The notes below the pieces were generated by a model that had not been told where the DNA came from, did no database searches, and worked only from the letters and a program-made list of their open reading frames with translations. A stretch of DNA of 61,255 nucleotides. Origin: Gemmatimonadaceae bacterium (GTDB taxonomy: Bacteria; Gemmatimonadota; Gemmatimonadetes; Gemmatimonadales; Gemmatimonadaceae). Every line of letters begins with the position of its first letter. Position 1 is the first letter of the stretch. Position numbers and translations under genes: made by a program. Location of the stretch: assembly GCA_035533755.1 (NCBI GenBank), contig DATLTC010000024.1, positions 1-61,255 of the forward strand. The letters are read 5' to 3'. Positions 8,596 through 44,015 of the stretch are shown in pieces.

Positions 8596-9678
8596 TTATG
8601 CGTCGCCGAAGCTTATGCCGGTGGATCGCGCGGTCTGGACCACGTCGTGATCGGGCTCCACCCGCTTGGACTGGCGCAGGGCGTCGGCTATGGGAATCGT
8701 GATGATGTGCGGTGATTGCAGGGCTACCATGTGTCCCCACCGCTCGTTGGCCACCGCCACCACCGCGGCGCCCCCGAACCGGGTGGCGAGCAGACGGTCG
8801 TAGCCGGTGGGCTGGCCGCCGCGCTGGAGGTGCCCGAGCACCAGCGTCCGCGTCTCCTTGCCCGTCCGCTCCTCGATGGCGCGGCCCACCACTTCGGCCA
8901 CGCCGCCCAGCCGCGCCTCGCCGCCCGGAACGGCCCGCTCCACCGTATACGGAACGCCGCCGCGCGGGAACGCGCCCTCGGCCACCACCACGATCGAAAA
9001 GTGGCGGCCCGAGCGGTCGCGCGTGCGGATCTTGTCGCACACGCGCTCGATGTCGTACGGGATCTCGGGAATCAGGATCACGTCGGCGGTGCCGGCGAGC
9101 CCGGCGTGGAGGGCGATGAACCCGGCGTGGCGCCCCATCACCTCCATCACGATCACGCGATCATGGCTCTCCGCCGTGGTATGCAGCCGGTCGATCGCTT
9201 CGAGCGCCGTGTTGACCGCCGTGTCGAAACCGAACGTGCTGATCGTGGCGCTCACGTCGTTGTCGATCGTCTTCGGCACGCCCACCACGTGCAGGCCCTT
9301 GGCGTGGAGCTGCTGGGCCAGGTGCAGCGACCCGTCGCCGCCGATCGAGATCAGGGCGTCGATGCCGAGTTGGCGCGCATTCTCGATCAACTCATCGGAG
9401 CGGTCCACCTCGATCACCGTCCCGCCGGGCTGCTGCACCGGCCAGCGGAACGGATTGCCGCGGTTGGTGGTGCGGAGGATGGTGCCGCCCAGATGCGCGA
9501 TCCCGCGCACCGAGTCGGCGTTGAGCGTCATGACCTCGTCCTCGCCCAGCAGGCCGAAGTAGCCACGCTTGATGCCCAGCACCTCCCAGCCGCGCTGGGC
9601 CGCCGAGAGCACGGCGGCGTGGATGACGGCGTTGAGTCCGGGGGCGTCGCCGCCGCCCGTGGAGATGGCGATGCGCAT
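8596..9678 (-). CDS. pfkA: 6-phosphofructokinase (group III type)
   Basis: PfkA phosphorylates fructose 6-phosphate in glycolysis. The 360-residue protein has the N-terminal STGGGDAPGLNAV loop, GGDGS at residues 113-117, PKTIDNDV from residue 135 and the substrate loop MEVMGRHAGFIAL. Gly in GGDGS is the ATP-type residue, whereas Lys in PKTIDND is the residue seen in pyrophosphate-dependent enzymes, where classical ATP enzymes have Gly. This mix is known from actinobacterial group III enzymes, which mostly use ATP. Phosphoryl donor therefore cannot be fixed from sequence. A small lipoprotein gene lies 285 bp upstream on the same strand's 5' side, ending 13 bp from the pfkA start. Confidence 0.95.
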   Translation of the reverse strand: MRIAISTGGGDAPGLNAVIHAAVLSAAQRGWEVLGIKRGYFGLLGEDEVMTLNADSVRGIAHLGGTILRTTNRGNPFRWPVQQPGGTVIEVDRSDELIENARQLGIDALISIGGDGSLHLAQQLHAKGLHVVGVPKTIDNDVSATISTFGFDTAVNTALEAIDRLHTTAESHDRVIVMEVMGRHAGFIALHAGLAGTADVILIPEIPYDIERVCDKIRTRDRSGRHFSIVVVAEGAFPRGGVPYTVERAVPGGEARLGGVAEVVGRAIEERTGKETRTLVLGHLQRGGQPTGYDRLLATRFGGAAVVAVANERWGHMVALQSPHIITIPIADALRQSKRVEPDHDVVQTARSTGISFGDA

Positions 9679-9943: not shown

Positions 9944-10080
9944 GTGGGGGATGGGCTGGGGTATTCGGGGAAGATGGACGGGCGCGCGCGGGGCGTCGAG
10001 GGTGGGCGCGCGGCGGCGGAGCGATGCGCCCGGCGCGAAGATGGTGCGCCCGCAAGGCCCCGCGCCCGCCAGGTTGGCAC

Positions 10081-10506
10081 ATGCGTCCCGCCCGCGCCAA
10101 CACCCTCCCCGAACTCCTCATCGCGCTCACGCTCGTCGCCGTGATCATGGCCCTGGCGGTGCCCCACATGGCTGCGTCGCTCGACCGGGCTGCGGCGCAT
10201 TCCGCGTCCCAGGAAATCGAATCCATTTTCGCGGCCGCCCGCTCCGAGGCGCTCGCCCGGCACTGCACGGTGTGGGTGGTGATCGACAGCGCGGGGGCCG
10301 CGATCCACCTCCGGGTGCCGGGCCGCGGAACCCGCACCCGGCTCCTGGGGTCTGTGTATGGAGTCGTGCTGTCCGCCACCCGCGATTCCATGAGTTACGA
10401 TGGGCGCGGACTGGGCCGGGGAGCGGCAAATCTGACGGTGATCGTCGCGCGGGGCCTGGTCCGGGACACCGTCGTGGTGTCGCGGCTGGGCCGAGTGCGG
10501 CGGTAG
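10081..10506 (+). CDS. GspH/FimT-like minor pseudopilin
   Basis: I prefer the ATG at 10081 (141 residues). It places a type IV prepilin signal at the N terminus: a short basic leader, then TLPELLIALTLVAVIMALAV, with the conserved Glu at +5 of the mature helix. The residue before cleavage appears to be Ala instead of the usual Gly. The remainder is a small beta-rich domain as in FimT/GspH minor pilins, which prime pilus or type II secretion pseudopilus assembly. No other pilus genes are adjacent, so it is an orphan. Divergent from the lipoprotein gene. Confidence 0.75.
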   Translation: MRPARANTLPELLIALTLVAVIMALAVPHMAASLDRAAAHSASQEIESIFAAARSEALARHCTVWVVIDSAGAAIHLRVPGRGTRTRLLGSVYGVVLSATRDSMSYDGRGLGRGAANLTVIVARGLVRDTVVVSRLGRVRR

Positions 10507-10628
10507 CGGACCCGCTCGGCGCGTAGCCGGAGGGGGTCGCCGGCCCTCGGCGGAGCTCGGCCACCCCCCTCCACCGTGCCGCGCTAGATTCCAAAAAGTT
10601 CGCGTGCAGGTCACGGATTGGTCTCTCC

Positions 10629-10644
10629 CGTGATCCACATCACG
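10629..10644. promoter_or_regulatory. CRP/FNR-type palindrome upstream of the sigma/CBM48 operon
   Basis: The sequence CGTGATCCACATCACG is a perfect 6+4+6 inverted repeat whose core GTGA-N6-TCAC equals the consensus half-sites of CRP-family regulators. It lies 46 bp before the sigma factor ATG, a place suited to activation or repression. No regulator gene is in the window; the assignment rests on sequence symmetry alone. Confidence 0.45.
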
Positions 10645-10690
10645 CAGGAATGTGACGCTGCGCCGTTGGGGGTGGGTTATTCCTCATGAG

Positions 10691-11233
10691 ATGAGCGACG
10701 ACGCTGCCGACGTCCGACGTGTGCTCAGCGGTGACGTTGACGCATACGCGGCGCTGGTGGATCGGTACTACGACCAGTGCGCCCGGTACGCCGTCCGGAT
10801 GCTGGGCAACCGGGACGACGCCGAAGATGCCCTGCAGGCCACGTTCCTGCGGGCCTATCGGGCGCTGGCCAAGTACCAGGAACGGGACAAGTTCAGCGCG
10901 TGGCTGTACCGCATTCTGGTGAACCAGTGCCGGAGTCTGGCGGCTCGGCGGACGCAGCGGGAGCGGGTCTTCGTTCGCGAGGAGGCGTTGCTGCTCAATG
11001 CGCCGGACGACGCGGCGTCGGGGTGGTCGGGTGAGGATGAGGAGTTCGTACAGCGGGTGTTGAGCGAGCTGGACCCGTTGCTGCGTGAGGCGTTTCTCCT
11101 CAAGTACATCGAGGAATTGAGCTACGAGGAGATGGCCGCGCTCACCGGCGTCGGCGTCTCCGCGCTGAAGATGCGGGTGAAACGCGCATGTGACCGTCTG
11201 CGCGAGAGATGGGAGCGCATTAAGCATGACTGA
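10691..11233 (+). CDS. ECF-type RNA polymerase sigma factor
   Basis: The 180-residue reading from ATG 10691 gives a compact two-domain sigma factor; an in-frame ATG at 10652 would add 13 atypical residues. Region 2 is seen in RYYDQCARYAVRML and DAEDALQATFLRAYRAL, with the core-binding FSAWLYRILVNQCRS after it. Region 4 is the helix-turn-helix ELSYEEMAALTGVGVSALKM. It should direct RNA polymerase to a small regulon. Its stop lies inside the start of the next gene (8-bp overlap), which takes the usual anti-sigma position. The next three genes appear to belong to the same transcript. A CRP-like palindrome lies upstream. Confidence 0.92.
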   Translation: MSDDAADVRRVLSGDVDAYAALVDRYYDQCARYAVRMLGNRDDAEDALQATFLRAYRALAKYQERDKFSAWLYRILVNQCRSLAARRTQRERVFVREEALLLNAPDDAASGWSGEDEEFVQRVLSELDPLLREAFLLKYIEELSYEEMAALTGVGVSALKMRVKRACDRLRERWERIKHD

Positions 11234-11834
11234 ATCCAACCAGGATCCGTACGTCGAGTGGATCGCAGCGGAGGCGCGGCGGCCAGTGCAACTGGCGGCC
11301 GACGCCCGCGTGCGCATCATGGACGCGGTCCGTGCCACCCCGCTGCCGGCGCGCCCTCGCCGCGGCAGCCGGTGGCTCACGGCACCGCGGACGCTCGCGC
11401 TGTCTCCCCTGGCGAGTGCGGTTCTGGCCGCCGGCCTGGTGGGCATCGGGGTCCTCGTTGGAATCTCCACCACAAGCCGGGACGGCCGCCAGCAGGCCGA
11501 GCAGCCCACCGCTGTCGCTGCGAATGCGCAGCTCCCGGTCCACGATTCACTGCAGGTCCACCGCTTCGAGTTGCGCGATCCGCTGGCGTCCAACGTCTCC
11601 CTCGTCGGTGATTTCAACGAGTGGAGCGCGTCGGCCACGCCCATGGAGCGCACGGCTGACGGCAAGTGGACGGTGACGGTCCACCTTCCGCCGGGCCGGC
11701 ACGTGTACGCGTTCATCGTGGACGGCGCCAAGGGCTCCACCTGGATGCCCGATCCGGCGGCGCTCCGTGCTCCGGACGACGGGTACGGGGCCCCCAATTC
11801 GGTCGTGCTCGTGGGCCAGGGATCGGCCACATGA
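11226..11834 (+). CDS. single-pass membrane protein with C-terminal CBM48 (AMPK glycogen-binding) domain; possible anti-sigma factor
   Basis: 202 residues. An N-terminal cytoplasmic part (about 1-58, Arg-rich) is followed by one membrane segment (about 62-81) and a Gln/Ala-rich linker. A periplasmic CBM48/AMPK-beta-like domain follows (about 112-200), with VSLVGDFNEWS at 124-134 and the PGRHVYAFIVDG strand. In the AMPK family this fold binds alpha-glucans. The position immediately after an ECF sigma gene, overlapping it, suggests an anti-sigma role, but I see no zinc-binding HxxxCxxC. The start ATG 11226 is fixed by the overlap. It also overlaps the next gene as ATGA. Role as glucan sensor is inference. 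Confidence 0.85.
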   Translation: MTESNQDPYVEWIAAEARRPVQLAADARVRIMDAVRATPLPARPRRGSRWLTAPRTLALSPLASAVLAAGLVGIGVLVGISTTSRDGRQQAEQPTAVAANAQLPVHDSLQVHRFELRDPLASNVSLVGDFNEWSASATPMERTADGKWTVTVHLPPGRHVYAFIVDGAKGSTWMPDPAALRAPDDGYGAPNSVVLVGQGSAT

Positions 11835-12454
11835 ACCGGCGCAACGTTCGGTGCGCGCTCTCGGCGCTGCTCGCGGTGGCCATGGCCGCTCCGTCGCTCC
11901 TTGCCCAGGGCCCCGACCCGCTGGCCAAGCTCGACACGGCCAGTCGCCGCATGGTCCAGTCGCTCATCGATTCGGCGCGTGCCGAGGGGCTTCCCACGCA
12001 GCCGGTGATCTCGAAGGCGCAGGAAGGGGTGAGCAAGCATGTGAGCGGCCCCGTCATCGCCCGCGTGGTGCGGACGGTGTTCCTCTCGCTCCGCCAGGCG
12101 CGGGCCACCCTGGGATCGGGCGCCAATCGCGATGAACTGACTGCCGGAGCGGCGGCGCTGCAGGCCGGAATCCCGGCCGCGGCCCTCATCGACCTGCGCC
12201 ACGCCGGCCGCGGAAAATCGATCACCGTGCCCCTGGTGGTGCTCGCCGACCTCGTCACCCGCGGCGTCCCGCGCGACACGGCATCCCGCGCGATCCTCCA
12301 GCTCTGGCAGGGGGGGGCCGGCGATGCCGATCTTCTGGGCTTGCCGCGGGCGGTGGAACAAGACATAGTATCGGGAGCCGCACCGGGTGACGCGCTCCTC
12401 AATAGAGCGCGTACCATCCCGATTCGGCTGCCGCCTGCCAAGGTCCCCGAGTAG
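11831..12454 (+). CDS. periplasmic helical protein of unknown function in the sigma/CBM48 operon
   Basis: 207 residues starting at ATG 11831 within the ATGA overlap. A signal peptide (RRNVRCALSALLAVAMAAPS, cleavage near LLAQ) predicts export. The mature protein is Ala/Leu-rich and mostly helical, with no cysteine and no motif I recognise. A run of eight G bases (12310-12317) lies in frame in the last third. It is sandwiched between two CBM48 proteins, so it is probably part of the same envelope complex or pathway. No function can be assigned. Confidence 0.8.
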   Translation: MNRRNVRCALSALLAVAMAAPSLLAQGPDPLAKLDTASRRMVQSLIDSARAEGLPTQPVISKAQEGVSKHVSGPVIARVVRTVFLSLRQARATLGSGANRDELTAGAAALQAGIPAAALIDLRHAGRGKSITVPLVVLADLVTRGVPRDTASRAILQLWQGGAGDADLLGLPRAVEQDIVSGAAPGDALLNRARTIPIRLPPAKVPE

Positions 12455-12472
12455 CGGCTCGCGGTTACCCGA

Positions 12473-13693
12473 ATGCCGAGCTCGTATCGAATGTTCGAGC
12501 TGAAGCCCAGCACCGCAGTCCTCGCCATCGGCCTCGTCCTGCTCATTCCGCAGCACGAGGCCTCGGCGCAGATCGTCTCGCGGCTCGAGGCGGGCGGGCT
12601 GATGAGCTCCACCCCGGGCTTTCTCCCGGCCAGCGCCATCAGCCTCACCCCGGACGTGCGCTACGACGGGCAGGTGCTCAAGGTCAGCGCCCGCGGCTCG
12701 GCCTGGATCAACGGGCAGTCGTGGCAGTTGGCCGACGGACAGGTCTCGGCCTCGGTCACCACGCCCACCCGGCATCACCTGAGCGCCCAGCTCATCGGCA
12801 ACGCGAGCCGGGCGTATTACGACGAACTCAACCAGAACGAACAGATCGACGCCGAAGCACGGGTCCATCTGGTGTTCTCGCAGAAGGGTGGGCTGTGGCT
12901 GGAGACCGGCGTGGCGCGTCCCTGGCGCGTGGCCGTGGTATCGGCCGTGGACGTGGCGGGCGCCGGCGCCTGGACCCAGTTGGGCGGGGCCACGCTCACG
13001 GGCACCTACACCAACTTCGCGTTCACCAAGATCGCGAGTTCCAAGGATTCCACCGGCGCCGCGCAGGCGTGCAGCACGCAGACGGACAACAACAGCTGCC
13101 TGCGCCAGTCGCATTTCAGCGACGTGCAGGGCACGGTCCACTGGGAGAAATCGTTCTTCGAGATCAACGCGCAGACCGGCTATCGGTTTGGTGACAACAA
13201 CGACGTCACCCCCGATTCGCGCCGGTGGGCGTCGGCGAGCGCCGTCGTCTGGCTCTCGTCCGACATGGCGGTGGTCGTGGGCGGCGGGCGGCAGCCGGCC
13301 AATCCGGCCCGCGGGCTGCCGGCCCGCAATTATGCCAACCTTGGCGTGATGCTTGCCGCATGGCCGGCGATGACCGAGGGCGCCGTGCCCATCGAAGCCC
13401 GCGCCAGCGCGATCAGCAAGTTCGATATCAGTTCGGCCGGCACGTCCCTGGAGCGCGTGCAGGTGCACATCGCGGGCGTGCAGTCGGTGGACGTCATGGG
13501 CGACTTCACCGATTGGGAGCCGGTGGCGATGGTCCAGCGCGGCCGCGACCTCTGGGAAGCCCTGGTGCCCATCGGCGCCGGCGTGCACCAGCTCAACGTG
13601 CGCGTGGACGGCGGCAAGTGGCAGCCGCCCCCGGGCGCGCCCACGATGCGCGACGGATTCAACGGCGAAGTGGGCGTGCTGGTGATCCGGTAG
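12473..13693 (+). CDS. outer-membrane-barrel-like protein with C-terminal CBM48 domain
   Basis: 406 residues. A signal peptide ends near residue 33 (HEASAQ). Residues about 35-320 alternate polar and hydrophobic strands with aromatic ends (for example TVHWEKSFFEINAQTGYRF), as in outer-membrane beta-barrels. The C-terminal 80 residues are a second CBM48/AMPK-type domain with VDVMGDFTDWEPV and PIGAGVHQLNVRVDGG. It follows the periplasmic gene by 18 bp and ends 7 bp from the convergent helicase. The natural reading is an outer-membrane protein presenting a glucan-binding domain, with its partner in the inner membrane. Barrel prediction is by eye; CBM48 is clear. Confidence 0.8.
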   Translation: MPSSYRMFELKPSTAVLAIGLVLLIPQHEASAQIVSRLEAGGLMSSTPGFLPASAISLTPDVRYDGQVLKVSARGSAWINGQSWQLADGQVSASVTTPTRHHLSAQLIGNASRAYYDELNQNEQIDAEARVHLVFSQKGGLWLETGVARPWRVAVVSAVDVAGAGAWTQLGGATLTGTYTNFAFTKIASSKDSTGAAQACSTQTDNNSCLRQSHFSDVQGTVHWEKSFFEINAQTGYRFGDNNDVTPDSRRWASASAVVWLSSDMAVVVGGGRQPANPARGLPARNYANLGVMLAAWPAMTEGAVPIEARASAISKFDISSAGTSLERVQVHIAGVQSVDVMGDFTDWEPVAMVQRGRDLWEALVPIGAGVHQLNVRVDGGKWQPPPGAPTMRDGFNGEVGVLVIR

Positions 13694-13700
13694 CGCGGCC

Positions 13701-14909
13701 TCAGTCGGCGGCGACCGTGCCGAAATCGAACCCCGGCACGGAAATGCGCGCGATCGGCGCGCCGATCATGCGCTCGATGGTGCGGACCATCGCGATCTCG
13801 TTGGGCGCCATGAACGTGAAGGCATCCCCCGTGGCGTCGGCGCGGCCGGTGCGCCCGATGCGGTGGACGTAGTCCTCGGGCTGCTGCGGCACGTCATAGT
13901 TGATCACGTGCGAGATCCCGGAGATGTCGAGGCCGCGCTGGGCGATGTCGGTGGCCACGAGCACGCGGATCTTGCCGTCCTTGAAGTCGGCCAGGGCCTT
14001 GGTGCGCTGGGCCTGCGTCTTGTCGGCGTGCATGGCGGTGGCGCTGATGCCCTCGTGCTCCAGATCCCGCACCACGCGATCAGAGCCGTGCTTGGTGCGG
14101 CTGAACACGAGCACGGAGTCCATCCCGCTCTCCTTGAGCAGTTGCGCCAGCAGCGCCGTCTTCCGCTCCTGCGGCACCGGGTACACGGCGTGCGTCACCG
14201 TGCTCGCCGCGGAGGAACGAATGCCGATCTGCACGACGATCGGCTTGCGGAGGTACTTGCGCGCCAGGGCCTCGACTTCGGGCGGCATCGTGGCGCTGAA
14301 CAGGAGCGTCTGCCGGTAGCGCGGAATCTCGGCCACGATCCGGTTGATCTGCGGCGCGAACCCCATGTCGAGCATGCGATCCGCCTCGTCGAGCACCAGC
14401 ACTTCGAGGTCGTCGAACACCACGTTCTGCCGCTCGAGGTGGTCGATCATCCGGCCCGGCGTGGCGACCACGACATCGACGCCGGCCCGCAGCTTCTTCT
14501 GCTGGGGGTCGAGCGGTACCCCGCCGTACACCGGCGCCACGTCGAGGTCCGCGTACTTGGCGTACTTCTGCACGCTCTCTTCCACCTGCACGCACAGCTC
14601 GCGCGTGGGCGTGAGGATGAGGGCTCGCGTGCGGCGCGGCCCGCCCGTGAGCCGGTCCACGATCGGCAGCGTGAACGCCGCCGTCTTGCCGGTGCCGGTC
14701 TGCGCCAACCCCATGATGTCGCGGCCCTTGAGAACGAGCGGAATGGCCTGCAACTGGATGGGCGTCGGCTCGCGATATCCGGCATCCGCCACGGCGTGCA
14801 ACACCGGTTCGGAGAGCCCCAGACCGGCGAACGTCGCCGACGGCTCGGATGACTCAGGGGACTGGGACGGCTCGGATGGCTCCGATTTCGGTTTCTTCTG
14901 TCTTGGCAT
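13701..14909 (-). CDS. DEAD-box RNA helicase (RhlE-like)
   Basis: 402 residues with the full DEAD-box set: Q motif (PTPIQLQAIP), motif I AQTGTGKT, Ia PTRELC, II DEAD, III SAT, V ATDIAQRGLD and VI HRIGRTGR. The core is followed by a short tail only, unlike CsdA/DeaD with long RNA-binding C-termini, which suggests an RhlE-type enzyme acting in ribosome assembly or RNA decay. The first 25 residues are a repetitive Ser-Pro-Glu stretch (PSEPSQSPESSEPS). It is last of three same-strand genes (hypothetical, hydrolase, helicase), 35 bp after the hydrolase. Confidence 0.93.
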   Translation of the reverse strand: MPRQKKPKSEPSEPSQSPESSEPSATFAGLGLSEPVLHAVADAGYREPTPIQLQAIPLVLKGRDIMGLAQTGTGKTAAFTLPIVDRLTGGPRRTRALILTPTRELCVQVEESVQKYAKYADLDVAPVYGGVPLDPQQKKLRAGVDVVVATPGRMIDHLERQNVVFDDLEVLVLDEADRMLDMGFAPQINRIVAEIPRYRQTLLFSATMPPEVEALARKYLRKPIVVQIGIRSSAASTVTHAVYPVPQERKTALLAQLLKESGMDSVLVFSRTKHGSDRVVRDLEHEGISATAMHADKTQAQRTKALADFKDGKIRVLVATDIAQRGLDISGISHVINYDVPQQPEDYVHRIGRTGRADATGDAFTFMAPNEIAMVRTIERMIGAPIARISVPGFDFGTVAAD

Positions 14910-40894: not shown

Positions 40895-41161
40895 TCAGCG
40901 GGCGAAGCCTTCCTGGCGCAGCGACTGCAACACCTTCTGCCGCAGATCCGGCGAGGCCCCGGGCCGCCGCTGCAGCGTGCCCACGGCCTCGAGGAAATTC
41001 TCCTGGAACGTCTTGTATTCAAAGCACTGGTGGCAGTCGGCGATGTGCGCACGAAGCCGTTCCGTGGTCTGTTCCGTGAGTCGCTCGTCGAGGTAGTCCC
41101 AGACGTGCTTGAGCACTTCGAGACACTCGGGGGGCAGTGGAGGGATCTGGCCACCGCTCAT
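40895..41161 (-). CDS. zinc-binding anti-sigma factor (ZAS family)
   Basis: 88 residues. The ZAS motif HxxxCxxC is present as HIADCHQC near residue 39, with an earlier ECLEVLKHVWDYLDE helix that matches the first half of the sigma-binding fold. In SigR/RsrA-type pairs, oxidation of these cysteines releases the sigma factor. There is no membrane segment, as in RsrA. Its ATG overlaps the sigma stop by 4 bp, which is the expected arrangement. The family resembles mycothiol-system anti-sigma factors, although whether mycothiol or another thiol is involved is unknown. Confidence 0.9.
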   Translation of the reverse strand: MSGGQIPPLPPECLEVLKHVWDYLDERLTEQTTERLRAHIADCHQCFEYKTFQENFLEAVGTLQRRPGASPDLRQKVLQSLRQEGFAR

Positions 41162-41760
41162 TGGTCCTCCTGGTGCGGGCGTTCACCCTGCGCGAGTCCT
41201 GCATCGCGGGCGTATACGAGCAGCATTTCCTGCAGCAGGCGCCGGCCGCGGAACAGCCGCGACCGGATGGTGCCGATGGGCACGCCGAGGATCTCCGCCG
41301 CGGCTTCGTACGGCTGGTCCTCCACGTCCACGATCACGATCGCGGTCCGGAAGGGCTCCGGAATCTGCAGCAGCGCCCGCTCCACGGCGGGCCGGATGTC
41401 GAGCCGCGCGAAGAGCCCCGTGTACCCGTCCTCCAGCGCCGCGGCGTATACCTGCCCCGCCCCGATCACGTCCCGTTCGACGTCCTCGATGTCCACCATG
41501 GGGCGCTCGCGCTCGCGGGATCGGAGAAACGCGTTGCGGCAGATGGTGAACAGCCAGCGGCGGCAGTCGCTGCCGGGCGCGTAGGTATGCCACGACCGAT
41601 ACGCCCGCAGGTAGGTGTCCTGCACGATGTCGTCGGCGTCGCTGGCGTCGCGCGTGAGCGACAACGCAAAGCGATGCACGTCGTCGAGCCAGGGCAGCGC
41701 TTCGCGCTCGAAGGCCGCGTCGCGGCCGGCCGGGGAGTCGGGGGTGAGTGCGGGAATCAT
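41158..41760 (-). CDS. ECF sigma factor (SigR/RpoE-like)
   Basis: 200 residues from ATG 41760. Region 2 contains DASDADDIVQDTYLRAYRSW and CRRWLFTICRNAF; region 4 has IPEPFRTAIVIVDVEDQPYEAAAE and GVPIGTIRSRLFRGRRLL, a clear helix-turn-helix. The sequence matches the SigH/SigR group that pairs with a zinc anti-sigma, and the ZAS gene follows with a 4-bp overlap. The regulon is probably thiol-oxidative stress. It is divergent from the TonB receptor; their 83-bp gap includes an 8-bp hairpin. I could not find its own GGAAT/GTT promoter with confidence. Confidence 0.93.
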   Translation of the reverse strand: MIPALTPDSPAGRDAAFEREALPWLDDVHRFALSLTRDASDADDIVQDTYLRAYRSWHTYAPGSDCRRWLFTICRNAFLRSRERERPMVDIEDVERDVIGAGQVYAAALEDGYTGLFARLDIRPAVERALLQIPEPFRTAIVIVDVEDQPYEAAAEILGVPIGTIRSRLFRGRRLLQEMLLVYARDAGLAQGERPHQEDQ

Positions 41761-41808
41761 GGTTTGACGTCCCAACTTAACGTCGCGATCTTGGCCGCGA
41801 CCAGGGCG

Positions 41809-41828
41809 CCACGCCGGCAGCGGCGTGG
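41809..41828. promoter_or_regulatory. 8-bp hairpin/operator-like palindrome upstream of the TonB receptor
   Basis: CCACGCCG and CGGCGTGG flank a GCAG loop, 15 bp before the first ATG of the receptor gene. It could be a repressor operator or a leader hairpin that covers the ribosome site. Confidence 0.35.
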
Positions 41829-41843
41829 ACAAGGCCTCACCAG

Positions 41844-44015
41844 ATGCAACCCGGGCACACGCGGAACACGTCATATGCAGTGGAATCTCCTGTGCAAGTA
41901 AGCGGAGCGCGGCCCGTGGGGTTCCTGGCGCTGCTCCTGGCGCTGGCCGCGCCGGCGGTGGGCGCCCAGCAGGCGGGGCGGCGCGACTCGACGCGGGCGG
42001 ACTCGCTGGCCGCGGCGCGGCTGGCGCCGATCACCGTGTCGGCCACGCGGTCGGCCATGCCCCGCGACCGCGTGCCCAACGCCACCGCGGAACTGAGCCG
42101 CGGCCAGATCTCGCGCGGGCGCGCCACGCTCGGGCTGGACGAATCGCTGGCCCAGGTGCCCGGCGTGTACGCCCCCGACCGCTACAACTTCTCGCTCGAC
42201 GACCGCATCTCGATCCGCGGATTCGGCGCGCGCTCGGCGTTTGCCATTCGCGGCATCACCGTCCTGCTGGACGGCATCCCGCAGACGCTGCCCGACGGAC
42301 AGGGGCAGCTGAACAACCTCGAACTCGGCGAGACCGATCGCATCGAGGTGCTGCGGGGATCGTCGTCGGCGCTATTCGGCAACGCGGCCGGCGGCGTGAT
42401 CAGCATCTGGAGCGACCCGGTGCCGCCGGCGCGCGCCACCGAGGAGGTGCAGTTCACGGGCGGGAGCAACGGGCCCGGGCTGGGCAACCCGTGGAGCAAG
42501 TGGCGCAGCACGACGCGGCTGGCCGTGGGCCGCGGCGTGGCCCAGGTGACGGCGTCGCGCGTGGCGTACACGGGCGCGCGCCAGCACAGCACGGCGGATC
42601 TGCGAAATCTCAACGCCCGGCTCGGGCTGCCGCTGGCCGACGACTGGACGCTCACGGCGCTGCTCGAAGTCGGCGACGATCCGCGGGCCGACAATCCCGG
42701 CGCGCTCACCGCGGCCGAACTGGCCGCCAATCCCGACTCGGCGGCGGCGATCAATCTCGCCACGCAGGCGGGCAAGTCGGTGACGCAGACGCAGTCGGGC
42801 GTCACGCTGCAGAAGCGATGGGCGGGCGGGGGCCAGGCGGCGATCACGGCGTTCGGGCTCACGCGCGAGCTGCAGAACCCGCAGACCTTCGCGTACATCG
42901 ATCTGCGGCGCCGGGCCTACGGGCTGCGGGGCTCGGCCAGCCGGCCGCTGACCATCGGGGCGCTCCGACAGACCGTGACCGCCGGCGCCGACGTTCAGGA
43001 GCAGCGCGACGACCGCGTGAACTTCGGCAACAGCGGCGGCGCGCCCACCAGCGCGCGCTCGCTGGACCAACTCGAGCACGTCACGTCGTTCGGGCCGTTC
43101 GTGCAGAGCGCCGTGCGGCTCGATCCGCGCACCACGCTCACCGTGGGCGCGCGCTACGATCACCTGCAGTTCCGCGTGCACGACCGCCTGGTCACGGCCA
43201 CCAATCCCGACGACTCCGGCAACCGGCTGATGCGCGCGCTGAGCGGTTCGGCGGGACTCACCGTTCGGGCCAGCGACGCGGCGACCGTGTACGCGAACGT
43301 CGGCACCTCGTTCGAGACGCCCACCACGACCGAGCTGGCCAACCGCCCCGACACGGCTGGCGGATTCAATGCCTCGCTCGATCCGCAGACCGCCACCAAC
43401 TACGAAGTGGGCGTGCGCGGCGCGCTCGCGGCGCGGCTGACGTACTCGGTGGCCGTGTATCAGGCCAACGTGCGCGACGAGCTGACCGCGTTCGAGGAGC
43501 CGGCATCGCCGGGGCGCGCGTTCTACCGCAACGCCGGGCGGTCGCGGCACCGGGGCGTGGAGCTGGGCGCGCAGCTGAGCGTGGTGCCGGGCCTGTCGCT
43601 GGCCGCCGCCTGGACCTACTCCGACTTCCGGTACACGCAGTACACGGCCGCGTCACGGAATCTCGCCGGCCGGTCGCTGCCGGGCATCCCGCCGCAATGG
43701 CTCGACCTCGCGCTGCACCTGCGCCCGGCGCCGGCGCGCGGCGGGTGGGCCGACGTGGAGCTGCAGCACGCGTCGAGCTACTTCGTGGACGACACCCTCG
43801 ACACGCGCACGGCCCCGTGGACCACGGTGGGAGTGCGCGTGGGCTGGGACGGCATGGTGCAGGGTTCGCGCGTGGGCCCGTTCGTGGCCGTGAACAACCT
43901 GTTCGACCAGCGGTACGTGAGCTCGGTGGTGATCAACGCGTCGCGAGGCCGGTACTACGAGCCCGCGCCGGGCCGGAACGTGTACGTGGGCCTCTCGGTG
44001 GGTGTGGGTTCGTAG
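41844..44015 (+). CDS. TonB-dependent receptor (FecA-like)
   Basis: 723 residues from ATG 41844; a GTG at 41892 would give a tighter signal peptide (GFLALLLALAAPAVGAQQ) and may be the true start. The TonB box region (PITVSATRS) is followed by the plug domain with SLAQVPGVYAPD, RISIRGFG and IEVLRGSSSALFGNAAGGVI. The barrel continues to the last strand NVYVGLSVGVGS. It imports siderophores, vitamin complexes or sugars. No TonB, ExbB or binding-protein gene is next to it, so the ligand is unclear; the sugar genes 1 kb downstream make a carbohydrate ligand possible. Confidence 0.93.
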   Translation: MQPGHTRNTSYAVESPVQVSGARPVGFLALLLALAAPAVGAQQAGRRDSTRADSLAAARLAPITVSATRSAMPRDRVPNATAELSRGQISRGRATLGLDESLAQVPGVYAPDRYNFSLDDRISIRGFGARSAFAIRGITVLLDGIPQTLPDGQGQLNNLELGETDRIEVLRGSSSALFGNAAGGVISIWSDPVPPARATEEVQFTGGSNGPGLGNPWSKWRSTTRLAVGRGVAQVTASRVAYTGARQHSTADLRNLNARLGLPLADDWTLTALLEVGDDPRADNPGALTAAELAANPDSAAAINLATQAGKSVTQTQSGVTLQKRWAGGGQAAITAFGLTRELQNPQTFAYIDLRRRAYGLRGSASRPLTIGALRQTVTAGADVQEQRDDRVNFGNSGGAPTSARSLDQLEHVTSFGPFVQSAVRLDPRTTLTVGARYDHLQFRVHDRLVTATNPDDSGNRLMRALSGSAGLTVRASDAATVYANVGTSFETPTTTELANRPDTAGGFNASLDPQTATNYEVGVRGALAARLTYSVAVYQANVRDELTAFEEPASPGRAFYRNAGRSRHRGVELGAQLSVVPGLSLAAAWTYSDFRYTQYTAASRNLAGRSLPGIPPQWLDLALHLRPAPARGGWADVELQHASSYFVDDTLDTRTAPWTTVGVRVGWDGMVQGSRVGPFVAVNNLFDQRYVSSVVINASRGRYYEPAPGRNVYVGLSVGVGS

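Follow-up and report, generated by a model that had tools for sequence, protein, structure and literature searches.

The window analysed here, a stretch of 61,255 nucleotides from a Gemmatimonadaceae bacterium (GenBank assembly GCA_035533755.1, contig DATLTC010000024.1), contains a module of four genes that has the look of an envelope sensor which regulates itself and has not been described before. The genes encode a sigma factor of the extracytoplasmic function (ECF) class (S), a one-pass membrane protein in the position of an anti-sigma factor (A), an exported helical protein (H) and a predicted outer-membrane barrel (B); A and B each carry a domain of the glycogen-binding family CBM48. We put the chances at about even that the module is an autoregulated ECF sigma/anti-sigma sensor of the envelope. 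The four genes and a predicted promoter occupy 10651-13693 on the + strand:

10651..10680, + strand: predicted ECF promoter, TGTGAC-N18-GGTTAT, by direct reading of the sequence
10691..11233, + strand: S, ECF sigma factor (group IV), 180 residues; Sigma70_r2 and Sigma70_r4_2 profiles
11226..11834, + strand: A, presumed anti-sigma factor, one-pass membrane protein, 202 residues; CBM_48 and AMPK1_CBM profiles, hydrophobic segment
11831..12454, + strand: H, exported all-helical protein, 207 residues; signal-like N-terminus, AlphaFold2 model, no Pfam family
12473..13693, + strand: B, signal peptide, 14-strand beta-barrel and C-terminal CBM48, 406 residues; AlphaFold2, AMPK1_CBM

The original prediction described four tightly overlapping genes at 10507-13693. 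This holds for S and A, which overlap by 8 nucleotides (11226-11233), and for A and H, which overlap by 4 (11831-11834), but H and B are separated by a gap of 18 nucleotides. All four genes are on the + strand. The stretch 10507-10690 is non-coding for the operon; this segment contains the promoter and at 10507 directly abuts the end of a pseudopilin-like open reading frame (ORF).

Conservation of the four-gene set

It is clear that the four-gene set is not a chance arrangement. Gemmatimonadota loci were scored with hidden Markov models, giving 78 loci with A; two more lacked a scorable A, through a frameshift-like fusion or the length cut-off. Of these 78, 77 have S, 74 have H and 63 have B, with the complete set of four in 61. 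The commonest gene order is that of the window, SAHB (42 loci), followed by SABH and SAH (11 each) and BSAH (4), with others being fewer; the genes are therefore kept together in relatives, as had been expected. The association is also seen from the side of H, since a comparison of coordinates in 30 genomes from the window's family puts 47 of its 49 matches next to an A match.

A matches were found in 54/59 family genomes, or 51/59 once three that are weak or unrelated (G018, G044 and G050) are removed, and in 185/297 genomes of a sample of the phylum; the module is often present in several copies per genome in the window's family. Contigs that bear the labels Eisenbacteria (L133), Myxococcales (L164) and Aliifodinibius (Balneolota; L187) have the full set too, and three others (L137, L138 and L196) have S-A-H without a recognised B. 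Since these contigs come mostly from metagenome bins, their taxonomic assignment can be trusted no further than the binning itself. The source genome itself (3.25 Mb) has a second S-A-H copy on contig C1 (17645-17893; L116 4214-5884) with its own TGTGAC promoter; no B gene was found at this copy, where a peptidase-like ORF follows. Two loci are rearranged with A before S (L118 and L119; A-S-H and A-B-S-H), and a Nitrospiraceae-labelled locus encodes one more CBM48 protein, small and exported, between A and H (L138 4288-4689).

The sigma factor, its promoter and the presumed anti-sigma factor

That the operon encodes an ECF sigma factor was borne out by profile searches, in which S matched Sigma70_r2 (1.9e-17), Sigma70_r4_2 (3.8e-13) and Sigma70_ECF. 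It consists of sigma regions 2 and 4 only, in about 180 residues, as befits an ECF (group IV) factor; it reaches no NCBIfam equivalog cut-off, and may already be included in a described ECF group. Its start is the ATG at 10691, an upstream GTG (10652) falling within the promoter. The promoter ends 10 nucleotides before this ATG and the operon transcript may therefore be nearly leaderless. A second, more distant sigma-like ORF is present elsewhere in the window (41158-41874, - strand; 1e-09 to S).

The motif GTGAC is found within the last 80 nucleotides 5' of S in 58 of 91 loci, compared to 7.3 in shuffled sequences and 12 in a control stretch. When the form of the promoter seen in close relatives, TGTGAC-N11-GGGGGTGGGTTAT, was searched for with up to 3 mismatches in 10 genomes from four genera, the module was matched in all 10 and only two matches lay away from it, each with 3 mismatches; the G-rich part of this promoter may reflect shared ancestry. 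A shorter core found the module in 8/10 genomes together with three other matches, which is no more than the chance expectation. Since the promoter matches are concentrated at the module, S probably drives mainly its own operon, and the output of the system would then be mainly the operon's own envelope proteins. A wider regulon using the promoter variant GGTNTA was rejected, with one match in four genomes. The sole other match to the core in the source genome (contig C100, 33640-33669; L211 1501-1530) lies 5' of a TPR-like ORF, adjoins the end of an imidazolonepropionase-like gene and could be due to chance.

Protein A is laid out as a cytoplasmic tail (residues ~1-60), a transmembrane segment (~62-80), a periplasmic linker and a CBM48 domain (~108-196). 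Its best hydrophobic 19-mer is 62-80 (mean Kyte-Doolittle value 2.41), with 5 positive residues on the N-terminal side and 2 on the C-terminal side. The domain is over the cut-offs for both CBM_48 (39.9 bits, cut-off 22.4; 5.4e-10) and AMPK1_CBM (37.8 bits, cut-off 26.8; 2.2e-9); both profiles are matched by 63/63 homologues of A, and a search of the PDB with a profile of the A family recovers AMPK beta1 (1.1e-13). Furthermore, the cytoplasmic tail is conserved, with an R-V/I-M motif in ~76%. Given the position and overlap of its gene, the single transmembrane segment with a positive-inside bias that places the N-terminus in the cytoplasm, the conserved tail and the presence of S in all but one of the loci with A, it is likely that A is the anti-sigma factor of S.

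The proposal that A combines an anti-sigma position with a periplasmic CBM48 is thus upheld in its position, membrane topology and domain. Against the anti-sigma role itself, none of the 63 homologues has a match at E <= 0.1 to a known anti-sigma family of Pfam, whether zinc-finger, RskA, RseA or another. Co-variation between S and A gives a weak signal. The strongest couplings are mildly enriched in the A tail, with 11 of the top 20 (5.9 expected, p 0.016), 16 of the top 30 (8.9 expected, p 0.006) and 23 of the top 50 (14.9 expected, p 0.011), but the enrichment is no longer significant for the top 100 (33 against 29.7 expected, p 0.27). The sample comprised 162 pairs (effective number 123), and all of these p-values are confounded by ancestry. 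Within this weak signal helix 2 of the tail co-varies preferentially with sigma2 and helix 1 with sigma4, which is the arrangement described for the two-helix anti-sigma factor CnrY with CnrH (PMC7406223).

Other identities were considered and rejected. A zinc-finger anti-sigma factor would require a domain that none of the 63 homologues of A has. Signalling of the FecI/FecR/FecA type was set aside as no FecR domain and no TonB-dependent receptor was found among the A and B homologues, and the barrel predicted for B, of 14 strands, contains no plug. An apparent natural fusion of S and A (L078 4998-6302) was not used; the end of its sigma region 4 is scrambled, so that it looks like a frameshift rather than a fusion, arising from an assembly error or a broken gene.

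The envelope proteins and the possible ligand

The description of H as a helical exported protein agrees with its signal-like N-terminus and with its AlphaFold2 model, which consists of helices throughout (mean predicted local distance difference test score, pLDDT, 92.6; predicted template modelling score, pTM, 0.80). H has no Pfam match, and the PDB gave no confident match to its fold: the best Foldseek E is 0.02, and the best Z, 8.7, is to designed helical repeats, a score usual among proteins of helical-repeat type.

B had been described as outer-membrane-like with a second CBM48, and both parts of this were recovered. Its AlphaFold2 model, of moderate confidence (pLDDT 79.4, pTM 0.62, from 15 sequences), has 14 strands (~33-296) followed, after a flexible linker (299-311), by a sandwich domain (316-405). 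The sandwich scores 26.2 bits with AMPK1_CBM in a protein scan (9.5e-6), just under the cut-off of 26.8, and exceeds it with 29.3 bits in a whole-genome search; the same profile is matched by 13/15 homologues of B, the best at 5.9e-11. The presence of CBM48 in both envelope proteins is therefore upheld, clearly for A and close to the cut-off for B. The barrel superimposes on those of CymA (Z 19.5, root-mean-square deviation 3.4, 237 residues aligned) and OmpG (Z 19.0, root-mean-square deviation 4.0, 229 residues aligned), and B is predicted to be a 14-strand outer-membrane barrel of this size class; at 5-8% identity to either protein the match is informative about shape, not function. As the number of strands is even, both ends of the barrel would be periplasmic, and the CBM48 of B should share the periplasm with that of A.

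The sugar site was assessed in 93 A and 74 B domains, with residues numbered by alignment to AMPK beta1, in which W100, K126, W133 and N150 are critical (PMC4032982). The equivalent of W100 is tryptophan in 100% of both sets and that of W133 in 80% of A and 91% of B domains; both platform tryptophans are present in the A and B of the window. The equivalent of L146 is Phe or Tyr in 94% of A and 88% of B domains, and 60% of A domains, including the window's, have Asn at the position of N150. The plant protein AKINbeta2 keeps only the two tryptophans, without K126 and N150, and yet binds starch (PMC4032982); with the tryptophan pair kept, carbohydrate binding by the CBM48s of A and B is therefore plausible. 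Five Bacteroidota proteins of ~483-493 residues have four CBM48 matches each (L156, L158, L166, L178 and L202).

These parts suggest a mechanism. A would hold S at the inner membrane through its short cytoplasmic tail, much as CnrY and other minimal anti-sigma factors with two helices do, and its periplasmic CBM48 would be the sensing part, its ligand most likely a short oligosaccharide resembling glucan. The CBM48 of B, hanging in the same periplasm, could capture that sugar, or present it, or else dock with A, and H would be a periplasmic helical partner. Occupation of the CBM48 of A, or loss of its contact with B or H, would lead to release of S, and free S would then transcribe its own operon from TGTGAC-N18-GGTTAT, raising the levels of S, A, H and B. 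A bolder version, in which the module represents an undescribed and widespread class of trans-envelope signalling where the CBM48s of A and B meet across the periplasm over a shared sugar and switch a sigma factor with a regulon that is essentially its own operon, we regard as unlikely.

Several observations weigh against a sugar-sensing module of this kind. Whether glucan-binding residues might be lacking had been raised in the original prediction, and the outcome is mixed: the tryptophan pair is kept, but K126 is lost from both A and B (Ala and Asn, respectively, in the window) and N150 is lost from B (Val in 66% of domains), including the B of the window. No GH13 protein was found in the source genome, whereas 13/14 control genomes have one. 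In a tally of family genomes the module is present in 14/17 of those without GH13 and 37/42 of those with it, and so shows no link to GH13 alpha-glucan metabolism. With the altered sites and the GH13 results taken together, alpha-glucan, which had been proposed as the sensed ligand, is no more than a possible candidate. A GT5 glycogen-synthase-type gene and a phosphorylase gene lie side by side on another contig of the source genome (C54, 80600-83209), so that an internal glucan is possible. Furthermore, the 11 loci in which S-A-H was found without B, the second copy of the source genome among them, indicate that B is not indispensable. Finally, the promoter search covered close variants, and a regulon with weaker or looser promoters could have been missed.

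The main rival to a sugar ligand is docking between A and B or H. The CBM48s would have been reused as protein-docking domains, A would sense B and/or H, and the module would be a homeostatic circuit serving just one outer-membrane protein: a missing or misassembled barrel would lead to cleavage of A, and S would restore the barrel, much as in RseA/RseB but with a single client. Such a circuit would fit a predicted regulon that is the operon itself, B and H included, the usual company of H and B with S and A, the loss of K126 from both domains and of N150 from B, and the absence of any tie to GH13. It would not, however, explain why the platform tryptophan pair is almost invariant in both domains, beyond the needs of docking, nor why S-A-H copies without B exist, and we consider it somewhat unlikely.

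Alternatively, the module could be an inducible glucan porin system, with glucan entering through B freeing S to make more porin, so that positive feedback would have uptake as its output. CymA, which with OmpG is the best structural neighbour of the B barrel, is a cyclodextrin porin. The CBM48 of AMPK binds beta-cyclodextrin (PMC4032982), and the tryptophan pair is kept in both domains. Against this, at such low identity the likeness of the barrels may be just that of the common 14-strand shape, the source genome is without a GH13 enzyme, and no glycoside hydrolase or sugar transporter was found recurring beside the module in a neighbour clustering that was not exhaustive; a porin system is accordingly improbable. 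Least probable is that A is not an anti-sigma factor and that S is controlled by transcription or by another protein, with A, H and B merely its targets: the missing anti-sigma domain and the weak co-variation would suit this, but it sits poorly with overlapping S and A genes, a one-pass protein with a conserved tail, and the near-constant presence of S beside A.

Relation to known systems and genomic neighbours

The original prediction held that CBM48 is normally attached to enzymes or AMPK, not to sigma regulators. For carbohydrate-binding modules in general this does not hold, since in Clostridium thermocellum the sensor domains of RsgI anti-sigma factors include CBM3 and CBM42 (PMC12203970), among others, and carbohydrate sensing by an anti-sigma factor is therefore already known; the unusual feature of the present module is that an ECF system of a diderm has CBM48, and has it twice. 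Like SigI/RsgI, the module has a one-pass (presumed) anti-sigma factor with a C-terminal extracytoplasmic carbohydrate-binding module, and several paralogous pairs per genome. Unlike SigI/RsgI, it has an ordinary ECF sigma factor, CBM48 rather than CBM3 or CBM42, a diderm host and two additional envelope proteins, of which B bears the second CBM48. Pfam searches of A and its 63 homologues found neither the N-terminal domain of RsgI nor its autocleaving periplasmic domain.

The short cytoplasmic tail before the transmembrane segment, and the pattern of the weak co-variation, resemble the CnrYH type (class II; PMC7406223), but the sensor of A is a CBM48 and no metal-sensing CnrX-like protein was seen. 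With the RseA/RseB system of sigma-E the module would share an inner-membrane anti-sigma factor, a periplasmic partner and outer-membrane protein output; it differs in a predicted regulon of one operon, in the helical-repeat partner H and in the CBM48 that A and B have in common. The CBM48 domains belong by profile to the same family as those of AMPK beta-subunits and GlgB-type enzymes and keep the tryptophan pair, but they have lost K126, have no attached enzyme or kinase and are predicted to be periplasmic. Finally, B matches OmpG and CymA in strand number and barrel shape but adds a C-terminal periplasmic CBM48.

The literature searched, on CBM48 and glycogen-binding domains in connection with sigma factors or Gemmatimonadota, gave no description of the module. 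Gemmatimonadota abound in soil, and few genetic tools exist for them; to our knowledge most of their ECF systems are without a known signal. The parts of the module are concrete and open to test: the fold of the sensor domain is known, and a promoter and an outer-membrane partner are predicted. If a sugar is indeed sensed, carbohydrate sensing by anti-sigma factors would extend from the regulation of Gram-positive cellulosomes to diderm envelopes and to CBM48; if docking is the true role, a glycogen-binding domain would have been turned into an adaptor for envelope signalling.

Neighbours of the module vary by clade, and no glycoside hydrolase, other enzyme or sugar transporter was found recurring beside it by a coarse clustering of mechanically called ORFs, many of them antisense. 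The following are kept in the window's clade only:

8596-9678, - strand: phosphofructokinase-like
10024-10506, + strand: GspH-like pseudopilin
13701-14909, - strand: DEAD-box helicase-like

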